A stretch of DNA of 64,000 bases from Halosegnis marinus (GTDB taxonomy: Archaea > Halobacteriota > Halobacteria > Halobacteriales > Haloarculaceae): contig NZ_CP119802.1 of the NCBI RefSeq assembly GCF_029338355.1, forward strand, positions 434,001 through 498,000, in the 5' to 3' direction. Both the position numbers and the translations under genes were made by a program. Of this stretch, positions 91-3,579 are shown in pieces; the stretch's first letter is position 1; each line of letters starts with the position of its first letter. The notes below the pieces were generated by a model. That model was given only the letters and a program-made list of their open reading frames with translations. It was not told the origin of the DNA and did not search any database.

Positions 91-1035
91 ATGACACGCA
101 TCTCACGACGGCAGGACGACCGCAACGTACAGAGCGACGACACCGAGGAGGAGGTCGACCCCGACAACCTCGTCCGCACCGCCAACGGCGAACTGATGGA
201 CGAGGAGTCCGGGCTCATCGTCGACGAGGACAACATCGACCGCGGGCCGGAGTGGCGCGCGTTCAACCACCAGGAGCAGCAGGAGAAGTCCCGCGTCGGC
301 GCGCCCACCACGCGCACGATGCACGACAAGGGCCTGACCACGAACATCGACTGGCAGGACAAGGACGCCTCCGGGCGCGCCATCTCCCAGGAGAAGCGCT
401 CGCAGATGCAGCGGCTCCGCACCTGGCAGGAGCGCATCCGCACCCAGGAGAACGGCGAGCGGAACCTCCAGTTCGCCCTGAGCGAGATCGACCGGATGGC
501 GAGCGCGCTGGGCGTACCCCGCTCCGTACGCGAGGTCGCCTCCGTCATCTACCGGCAGGCGCTCGACCGCGACCTGATTCGGGGGCGCTCCATCGAGGGC
601 GTCGCCACGGCCTCGCTCCACGCGGCGTGCCGACAGGAACACATCCCCCGCAGCCTCGACGACGTGACCGCCGTGTCCCGCGTCGAGCGCCGCGAGATCG
701 GCCGCACCTACCGCTACATCTCACAGCAGCTCCGACTCGCGCTCGAACCCGCGGACCCGAAGGAGTACATCCCCCAGCTCGCCTCCGAGCTGGAGGTGAG
801 CGACGAGATACAACAGGAGTCCGTCCGCATCGTCGAGGAGACGACGGCGCTCGGCCTCCACTCCGGCAAGTCGCCGTCCGGGTACGCCGCCGCGGCCATC
901 TACGCCGCCTCGCGCGTCGTCGGCCCGAAGCTCACGCAGCGGCGGGTCGCGGACGTGGCGGACGTCACCGTCGTCACCATCCGCAACCGCTACCAGGAGC
1001 AGATGGACGCGCTGGACGCCGAGATCGTCCACTGA
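91..1035 (+). CDS. tfb: Transcription initiation factor IIB (TFB), zinc ribbon lost
   Basis: Archaeal TFB, which bridges TBP-bound box A DNA and RNA polymerase. The 314-residue protein has the B-reader/linker (GPEWRAF at about 52-58, then KSRVGAPTT) and two cyclin-like repeats (about 115-205 and 215-305; RSIEGVATASLHAAC, GKSPSGYAAAAIYAAS, recognition-helix region VTIRNRYQEQ). It closely resembles the haloarchaeal class whose core reads ERNLQFALSEIDRMASALG. The oddity is at the N-terminus: where the family has CxxC...CxxC, this protein reads VDPDNLV...GELMDEESGL, and the only cysteine in the whole protein is C180. It probably cannot bind the ribbon zinc. Haloarchaea carry several TFBs, so this is likely one specialised paralogue. 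It is convergent with the ribosomal operon. Confidence 0.95.
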   Translation: MTRISRRQDDRNVQSDDTEEEVDPDNLVRTANGELMDEESGLIVDEDNIDRGPEWRAFNHQEQQEKSRVGAPTTRTMHDKGLTTNIDWQDKDASGRAISQEKRSQMQRLRTWQERIRTQENGERNLQFALSEIDRMASALGVPRSVREVASVIYRQALDRDLIRGRSIEGVATASLHAACRQEHIPRSLDDVTAVSRVERREIGRTYRYISQQLRLALEPADPKEYIPQLASELEVSDEIQQESVRIVEETTALGLHSGKSPSGYAAAAIYAASRVVGPKLTQRRVADVADVTVVTIRNRYQEQMDALDAEIVH

Positions 1036-1601: not shown

Positions 1602-3080
1602 CTAGCCGCCGAACATCTGGCGCATCATCGGGTGCATCTCCATCAGCTGCTCCTCCGCGATCTCCTCGTACAGCTTGTACGTGATGGAGACGGTCAGCAG
1701 CAGCCCCGTGCCGGAGACCTGCCCGATGGTGCCGAGCAGGTTCGCGAGGACGGCGAGCGCGCCGACCAGCGCGCCGCCGATGACGGTCACCTGCGGGATG
1801 TAGCGTTCGAGCACCTTCTCGATGACGCCCGGCGACTGCCGGAAGCCGGGTATCTGCATCCCGGAGTTCTGGATCTGCTTCGCCGTCGACTCCGGCCCCA
1901 TACCGGTCGTCTCGACCCAGAAGACGGCGAAGATGGCGCCGCCGATGATCATGAACGTCAGGTCGACGGAGAGGCGCGCGAGCACCTGATACCACTCGTT
2001 GTTGCCGGCGAAGCCGGCGAACCACATCCAGTCCTGATAGGAGTAGATGGGCGCGAGGTAGTAGAACAGCCCGTCGACCGGGGTGGCCCCGGTCTCCGTG
2101 ACCTGGTACACCCCGAGCCACGCCGGCATCGACTCGCCCAGCTGGGCGTTGAGGATGCGGCCGAGGAACTGGACGTTCGCCTGCAGCGCGCGAACGAGGA
2201 TCATCGGCAGGACGGACGCGTAGATGAGCTTCACGGGGAAGCGGCCGCGCGCGCCCTTCACGCGGGCGTGCGATAGCGGTATCTCCACGCGGACGGACTC
2301 GGCGTAGACGACGACCACGAAGATGAGGACCGTCGTGAACAGGAACAGTATCTGTCCCTGTTCGAGCAGGAGGCTCTGGAGCCCCTGCGCGCCGAGCACC
2401 GGGCCGAGCTGGGTGTTCCCGACGATGATGTCGTACCAGCTGACGAAGAAGCCGCGGTTGCCCGTGATTCCCGGGACGGCGAAGAAGCCGCCGATGAGGC
2501 GCTGGCTGATACCGGCGATGATGAACAGGCCGATACCGGAGCCGACGCCCCACTTCGAGATGACCTCGTCCATGAACAGGATGAGGAGACCGCCGACGAA
2601 TATCTGGGCGAACATCAGCCACTGCAGGCCGCCGACGCCGATGCCGAGCGACTGGGCGACCGACGCGTCGGGCGTCAGGAAGCCGCCGGCGAACACCATC
2701 GGCAGGCCCGTCAGACACACCATCACGACCACCAGCAGCTTCTGGAGGCCCTGATACAGCACCTGGTCGCGCGGGTCGTTCGTGTCCAGCCCGAGCAGGT
2801 TCGCGCCGCCGAGCAGCTGGAGGACGATCGACGCCGTGACGATGGGGCCGATACCCAGCTGCAGAATGCTCCCCTGCTGTCCCGCGAGGATGGACCGGAA
2901 CTGGCCGAACGCGTCGCTCCCGCCGCCGAGACCGTAGATGGTCACGTTGGTCAGGAAGAAGTACAACACGAGGACGCCCGCCGTCCAGCCGAGCTTGCGA
3001 CGGAACGGGACGTGGCCCTCCGGTCGGGCCACGTTGGGCATCCGCGAGAGTACCGGTTCGGCGGTCTCCTTCCAGCTCAT
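1602..3080 (-). CDS. secY: Preprotein translocase subunit SecY
   Basis: Central channel of the Sec translocon in the cytoplasmic membrane, working with SecE and Sec61-beta. The 492-residue protein starts at MSWKETAEPVLSRMP, the usual archaeal SecY N-terminus. An upstream in-frame ATG would run through rpl15 and is rejected. About ten membrane segments are visible. The plug region follows TM1 (ILQLGIGPIVTASIVLQLL), and the cytoplasmic loop with SHARVKGARGRFPVKLIYAS matches the ribosome/SRP-receptor contact loop of the family. It is the last gene of the ribosomal operon, 1 nt after rpl15. In many haloarchaea adenylate kinase follows secY; here a non-coding gap and a convergent gene follow. Confidence 0.98.
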   Translation of the reverse strand: MSWKETAEPVLSRMPNVARPEGHVPFRRKLGWTAGVLVLYFFLTNVTIYGLGGGSDAFGQFRSILAGQQGSILQLGIGPIVTASIVLQLLGGANLLGLDTNDPRDQVLYQGLQKLLVVVMVCLTGLPMVFAGGFLTPDASVAQSLGIGVGGLQWLMFAQIFVGGLLILFMDEVISKWGVGSGIGLFIIAGISQRLIGGFFAVPGITGNRGFFVSWYDIIVGNTQLGPVLGAQGLQSLLLEQGQILFLFTTVLIFVVVVYAESVRVEIPLSHARVKGARGRFPVKLIYASVLPMILVRALQANVQFLGRILNAQLGESMPAWLGVYQVTETGATPVDGLFYYLAPIYSYQDWMWFAGFAGNNEWYQVLARLSVDLTFMIIGGAIFAVFWVETTGMGPESTAKQIQNSGMQIPGFRQSPGVIEKVLERYIPQVTVIGGALVGALAVLANLLGTIGQVSGTGLLLTVSITYKLYEEIAEEQLMEMHPMMRQMFGG

Positions 3081-3081
3081 T

Positions 3082-3579
3082 TTACTCCTCTGCGTCCTCG
3101 TCGTCCGTAGCTTCTTCGGCCTCCGCGGCCAGTTCCTCGCCCTTCTCGGAGAGGACGGCCTCACCGCCGGCGGCGTCGAGCGCCGCCTCGGCGTCGTCGG
3201 AGAACGCGTCCGCGGTGACGGTCAGGCTGTTGTGGACCTGGCCGCCGGCGAGCACCTTCACCGCGTCGACCTCGTGGCCGTCCTCGACGACGTCGCGCGC
3301 GTCGATGACGTAGCCGCCGTCGGTCTCCTCGGCGATACCGTCCTCGGCGTAGAGGACAGCGTCCTCGTCCAGCTTGCGGACGTTGATCGTCTCGACCTCG
3401 CGGTCGGTCTTCTGCGGGCGCTTGAAGCCGTGCTTGCCGCGCTTCGGGTAGAGCCCGCGCTCGTGCTTCTTCCGTCCCGCGCGCCCGCGACCGCCGCGGT
3501 GGCCGGCCCCGCGTCGCTTCTTGTGGGAGCCGCCGCCGTGCGTGCGCGAGCCGCGCTGTCGTCGTTTCTTGCTCGTCAT
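3082..3579 (-). CDS. rpl15: Ribosomal protein uL15
   Basis: Large-subunit protein uL15 (165 residues), made just before SecY as in other archaea. The basic N-terminus (MTSKKRRQRG, then THGGGSHKKRRGAGHRGGRG) is the rRNA-binding glycine/arginine tail of the family. The C-terminus is strongly acidic (ATDDEDAEE), a haloadaptation. Its ATG overlaps the stop of rpl30 (TAATG), so the two are translationally coupled. Confidence 0.98.
   Translation of the reverse strand: MTSKKRRQRGSRTHGGGSHKKRRGAGHRGGRGRAGRKKHERGLYPKRGKHGFKRPQKTDREVETINVRKLDEDAVLYAEDGIAEETDGGYVIDARDVVEDGHEVDAVKVLAGGQVHNSLTVTADAFSDDAEAALDAAGGEAVLSEKGEELAAEAEEATDDEDAEE

Follow-up and report, generated by a model that had tools for sequence, protein, structure and literature searches.

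A haloarchaeal TFB paralogue whose conserved N-terminal ribbon has lost all four zinc-binding cysteines

The zinc site of the B-ribbon counts as a structural hallmark of TFB and TFIIB. Ribosomal proteins provide C+ and C- pairs, paralogues with and without zinc cysteines, which have been tied to zinc starvation in bacteria, and a role as competitor, repressor or trans co-factor has been described for divergent TFBs such as TFB3 of Sulfolobus. The zinc ribbon of Haloferax TFE-alpha is degenerate and its partner TFE-beta is without an Fe-S cluster, and a working complex still forms (PMC5861453). One cysteine is left in this TFE-alpha, which still binds zinc weakly, and the same study mentions a trend to reduced cysteine content (PMC5861453). 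Our literature search found no published description of TFB ribbons without cysteines, and such ribbons are apparently undescribed so far.

We examined a TFB gene of this kind in the 2.8 Mb genome of the haloarchaeon Halosegnis marinus (G000), within a window of 64,000 nucleotides; positions are counted from the first letter of the window unless a contig is given. The first-pass annotation, made from the letters of the sequence, had claimed a TFB paralogue with all ribbon cysteines gone and a single cysteine, C180. The open reading frame, the domain matches and the alignments bear this out: the gene starts with ATG and encodes an intact product of 314 amino acids, of which C180 is the sole cysteine. 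The features are as follows.

91..1035, forward strand: TFB paralogue without zinc-ribbon cysteines, stop codon included (open reading frame call, PF00382, PRK00423, lone cysteine C180).
154..264, forward strand: cysteine-less B-ribbon, residues 22-58 (VDPDNLVRTANGELMDEESGLIVDEDNIDRGPEWRAF), from alignments; AlphaFold2 strands at 27-29, 35-37 and 43-44.
157..168, forward strand: first former knuckle, D23-P-D-N26, replacing CPEC (D23 in 55/55 and D, E or N26 in 55/55 cysteine-less sequences).
199..210, forward strand: second former knuckle, D37-E-E-S40, replacing CxxC, from column counts; H37 and T40 in most Haloferacaceae.
265..444, forward strand: B-reader and B-linker, for the most part conserved, with the clade-specific changes K111T and K119Q.
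457..738, forward strand: first cyclin repeat, with about 80-85% identity among TFBs of its own clade; codon for C180 at 628-630.
745..1008, forward strand: second cyclin repeat, which contains the BRE-reading helix-turn-helix and is diverged, at 50-60% identity.
961..972, forward strand: clade-specific Q291D and E294V, just before V295 and R298 in the recognition helix (residue register to human TFIIB taken from profile comparison).
1602..3164, reverse strand: secY, convergent neighbour, an arrangement conserved in Halosegnis and Halorarius.
G000:C1:432491-433909 and beyond, outside the window: trkA-trkH-trkH, upstream of the TFB gene, a conserved arrangement.

Outside the ribbon, the protein has the expected traits of a TFB. 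The TFIIB cyclin repeat model PF00382 matches in two stretches with 145 bits, both repeats being strong, and the curated archaeal TFB model (NCBIfam PRK00423/NF001658) scores 390.2 bits, above its cut-off of 384. A fold search that covered the cyclin core only found 1d3u_B with a Z-score of 24.1, and the B-reader and B-linker motif SRVGAP...HDKGLTT.IDW...RLR.WQERIRT is conserved relative to the canonical profile. The trait it lacks is the two CxxC pairs of the N-terminal zinc ribbon, with none of the four cysteines present, and the ribbon model PF08271 matches only the C-terminal half (residues 41-58), with a score of 18 bits, which is below its 29-bit cut-off. Weak PF08271 matches also lie elsewhere in this genome, at C1:922874-922978 (L007) and 371827-371907 (L008), one of them with an internal stop.

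A sequencing error, a frameshift or a wrong start could in principle hide the CxxC pairs, and we consider this extremely improbable. The frame 5' of the ATG is open for 10 codons only (QQQPHPRPDH), and an earlier start would therefore bring back no CxxC pair. The clade as a whole shares the loss, as the first-pass annotation had proposed checking: the six orthologues, from four further Halosegnis genomes and two Halorarius (L010-L015), are 80-87% identical to the window TFB and all cysteine-less, and since these were read independently a sequencing error is excluded; more than 80 further TFBs also lack the cysteines. Sequencing error, upstream start and orthologues with cysteines, the three points on which the claim could have fallen, were thus each examined, and none undid the cysteine loss. 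Within Halosegnis and Halorarius, dN/dS of the TFB orthologues is 0.06-0.26, and pN is 0.03-0.10 for the ribbon versus 0.02-0.15 for the rest of the protein, the ribbon evolving no faster in most comparisons. The cysteine-less TFB of this clade, ribbon included, is therefore under purifying selection and not a product of chance; it is a real, conserved zinc-less variant.

The residues that took the place of the cysteines are themselves conserved. In alignment with a canonical TFB of the same genome (L004), cysteine columns C23, C26, C41 and C44 correspond to D23, N26, D37 and S40, and the window TFB carries the motif common to the cysteine-less group, D-P-x-[DEN]-L-x-R-T-x-[DN]-G-E-L-[IM]-[HD]-E-[EP]-[TS]-G. 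Across 55 cysteine-less sequences, D23, T30 and E38 are each present in 55 and R29 in 53; position 37 is H in 48 and D in 7, and position 40 is T in 53 and S in 2. In canonical ribbons all these residues are missing or vary. These substitutions raise the alternative that a metal is still bound at the old cysteine positions by D23, D/E/N26, H/D37 and T/S40, with low affinity or as another divalent ion. Potential ligands do stand at three or four of the positions (D23 55/55, D/E/N26 55/55, H37 48/55 or D37 7/55), and Haloferax TFE-alpha binds zinc weakly with a single cysteine (PMC5861453). However, the window clade has D in place of H37, N26 is a poor ligand and T/S40 is not a usual zinc ligand, and we regard retained metal binding as unlikely.

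The predicted structure of the ribbon is similar with and without cysteines. AlphaFold2, which the first-pass annotation had called for, gives the same three strands for the window TFB (55-sequence alignment) and for the canonical paralogue L004 (37 sequences), offset by four residues that its first knuckle lacks in the window TFB; the claim that the strand pattern is kept thus held up. In the ribbon core, pLDDT is 74-79 for the window TFB versus 71-74 for L004, values to be read in light of the insensitivity of AlphaFold2 to the loss of metal ligands. Profile comparison also still finds the solved Pyrococcus TFIIB ribbon, 1pft, with an E-value of 8e-6. Acidic residues (D+E) make up 39.5% of the cysteine-less ribbon versus 29.5% of canonical ribbons, which is consistent with the acid-stabilised ribbon that had been proposed.

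By score, a ribbon-profile search placed the cysteine-less type in 124 of the 135 sampled Haloferacaceae genomes, in 21 of 23 genera. We calibrated the cut-off on sequences that were read: at about 70 bits or more, all of these lacked ribbon cysteines; the next match below it, from Natronomonas (G292, 69.6 bits), is a canonical four-cysteine ribbon. Among the matches listed from a 393-genome sample of the phylum, none fell outside the haloarchaeal order. In the genomes read with flanks, the conserved block ppa-padR-DUF7108-RNase H-TFB-Nre holds a cysteine-less TFB in Haloferax, Halorubrum, Halogranum, Halobium, Haloquadratum, Halobellus and others, and the same block, or its left half, carries a canonical four-cysteine TFB in Halorientalis, Salinibaculum, Halorhabdus and Natrinema. 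The Nre-linked TFB is likewise canonical in genomes of families f5 and f6, in Halorarius litoreus and in one Haloferacaceae genome (G195). Because other families and G195 have a four-cysteine TFB at the same Nre-linked locus, the Haloferacaceae protein is the positional orthologue of a canonical TFB, converted in place. The cysteine-less ribbon is thus a family-wide character of Haloferacaceae at the native TFB locus and not a peculiarity of the window gene. Replacement of the canonical TFB at its own locus argues that the cysteine-less protein would still do the job; it is the strongest sign of a functional cysteine-less ribbon and bears on the class, the window copy being a separate paralogue. 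Sporadic cysteine-less TFBs also occur off the Nre locus, in Natronococcus amylolyticus (L141) and as a second copy in Halogranum (L128), so this ribbon type also spreads as extra paralogues.

The window copy is itself an additional paralogue of this sort, distinct from the Nre-linked Haloferacaceae TFB and inserted between trkA and secY. In its genome no TFB lies within 1.5 kb of Nre, so that the window copy is not at the native locus, and its position between trkA/trkH and secY is conserved in Halosegnis and Halorarius; in a Natronomonas-type genome (G056), secY adjoins trkA with no TFB between them. One genome placed in the same genus (G003) is without an orthologue of the window TFB and has a rearranged site. 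At the level of the clade the gene can thus be dispensed with, as this absence and the 11 of the 135 sampled Haloferacaceae genomes without the ribbon type show. Besides, G003 has two secY matches (82% and 72%; L303 at C13:102876 and L316 at C2:4772), which may reflect contamination of a metagenome assembly or a real second copy.

The window TFB also differs from other TFBs in the part that reads the promoter. V295 and R298 of the recognition helix presumably contact the BRE, by equivalence with V283 and R286 of human TFIIB. Since E294V lies just before this Val/Arg pair and divergence extends over the entire second cyclin repeat, the window TFB likely has a changed promoter preference, and these clade-specific changes in the BRE-reading helix lend support to the earlier suggestion of a specialised factor. 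They would also suit a protein whose ribbon no longer recruits RNA polymerase and which sits on TBP-promoter complexes as a competitor, repressor or trans co-factor: the window TFB has lost the residues on which folding of the canonical ribbon depends, the linker and helix-turn-helix carry clade-specific changes, and the paralogue is absent from G003. However, a dead ribbon would not be expected to be under purifying selection and to gain new invariant residues, nor to replace a canonical TFB at the native Haloferacaceae locus, and the reader and linker are intact although a repressor would not need a B-reader. We therefore find such a role rather improbable.

The history of the cysteine-less TFBs is not one of simple descent. 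Core trees, with the ribbon left out, do not group them all (8 changes on a careful tree), and a single clade by protein core has an AU p of 0.03, so that a single origin by vertical descent was rejected for the core. In the TFB of G056 (L209, G056:C1:2354600-2356200), the ribbon is 75% identical to the cysteine-less ribbons of Halohasta, and the core matches canonical relatives within its own family at 87-93% identity and is most like the canonical Natronomonas/Halosegnis TFB. This TFB is a mosaic, which suggests that ribbons were exchanged or that gene conversion took place. Together with the ribbon motif held in common, it favors transfer of a ribbon module over repeated independent losses within this first cysteine-less kind. 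The window clade groups with a second Haloferacaceae cysteine-less subclade with moderate support (86/91), and the two have in common K111T, K119Q, K201R, I248V, L257H, Q291D, E294V and I305M. A second kind of cysteine-less TFB, with the ribbon LVYDEQHGEWVDPETGE, occurs in 15 of 391 genomes, Haloferax-like ones and a few others. It makes up a single clade elsewhere in the TFB tree (SH-aLRT 99); being separate by core, it represents an independent loss, and loss of all the cysteines thus occurred at least twice. Loci of this second kind include L344, L345, L362, L366, L368 and L370-L373 (G142:C12:24677, G173:C3:75274 and others).

Repeated loss could also mean that at high salt the zinc site is not needed and that the cysteines drifted away, with no adaptive meaning, in a general haloarchaeal cysteine depletion. 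TFE-alpha has lost one of its four ribbon cysteines in the window genome and three in Haloferax-like and Haloplanus-like genomes, TFB itself has lost its cysteines at least twice, and a trend to reduced cysteine content has been reported (PMC5861453). Yet drift should leave intermediates, and ribbon cysteine counts among about 160 distinct TFBs are all-or-none, four or zero and never one to three. Moreover, the window genome keeps several other TFBs with all four cysteines. The TFE-alpha ribbon of the window genome (L289, G000:C1:2058798-2059040) and those of other Halosegnis and Halorarius (L277, L279-L281, L284, L290, L291) keep three of four cysteines, the fourth being D, and one ribbon cysteine is left in Haloferax-like G142 and Haloplanus-like G145. 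Halorubrum and Natronococcus combine a cysteine-less TFB with a four-cysteine TFE-alpha, so the two losses are not coupled, and a one-to-one link between them was rejected. Drift is compatible with the mechanics of a zinc-free ribbon and differs only on why it arose; as the whole explanation we hold it to be possible but doubtful.

Taken together, we favor, with a probability of roughly two in three, the reading that the window TFB is a working, alternative initiation factor with a B-ribbon able to fold, and to dock on RNA polymerase, in the absence of zinc. Two observations count against it: the clade can dispense with the gene, and the several four-cysteine TFBs of the window genome argue that there is no general pressure against zinc. 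In place of the zinc site there would be a metal-free network of hydrogen bonds and salt bridges (invariant D23, R29-T30 and E38, with H/D37 and T/S40) on the retained three-stranded scaffold, probably stabilised by salt and by an acidic make-up suited to a cytoplasm with molar KCl. Binding of TBP and BRE, the reader and the linker would operate as they do in other TFBs. On this reading the ribbon type arose when a canonical TFB was converted in place in Haloferacaceae, and it was later shuffled between TFB cores. The Halosegnis/Halorarius copy would then be a paralogue related to the second Haloferacaceae subclade that settled between trkA and secY, where, its BRE-reading helix changed, it probably serves its own promoter subset.

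An advantage under zinc or redox stress is conceivable as well. Two Haloferax-like genomes have, of TfbB/D/F-type TFBs, one cysteine-less and one canonical. In H. volcanii, tfb1 (HVO_1052) and tfb2 (HVO_1676) both increase as proteins under hypochlorite (PMC10294847), both decrease under iron starvation (PMC11349517), and tfb2 is heat-induced (PMC2121645). Since both rise under hypochlorite, expression does not tell which of the two would be the cysteine-less one, and this response is only a lead for the redox idea. Still more tentative, at somewhat less than even odds, is the broader proposal that the metal-free B-ribbon of one TFB recruits RNA polymerase family-wide and that zinc-free TFBs are a distinct class that evolved twice and is retained for promoters or conditions in which zinc or thiols fail. 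If a metal-free ribbon does recruit the polymerase, the zinc site of TFIIB-type factors would be dispensable, raising the questions of whether zinc is needed for recruitment or only for folding the ribbon at low salt, and of how work is divided among the many haloarchaeal TFBs. A natural, family-wide loss at the native locus, with four-cysteine paralogues in the same cell, provides a ready-made test in genetically tractable haloarchaea.

Compared with known systems, the cysteine-less TFB is nearest in build to the canonical haloarchaeal TFBs of the TfbB/D/F-like clade (L004 and the Nre-linked TFBs of Halorientalis and Natrinema), with which it shares about 69-72% identity, domain order, B-reader, B-linker and cyclin repeats, and, for its Haloferacaceae relatives, the locus. 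It differs from them in the change of four cysteines to acidic or polar residues, in the new invariant R-T and E-x-T/S-G and, in the window clade, in Q291D and E294V. The second cysteine-less kind of Haloferax-like genomes (EDLVYDEQHGEWVDPETGEVVRE) has likewise lost all four cysteines and has GE-x-V-[DN]-x-E-T-G at the second knuckle, although its ribbon sequence is otherwise different and its core belongs to a separate TFB clade. The C+ and C- ribosomal proteins offer the same contrast between paralogues with and without zinc cysteines, the tie to zinc starvation belonging to the bacterial ones. Finally, TFE-alpha/beta of Haloferax volcanii (PMC5861453) is, like the cysteine-less TFB, a haloarchaeal basal initiation factor with lost metal ligands, and it still works, although it is another protein and its TFE-alpha retains one cysteine and weak zinc binding.
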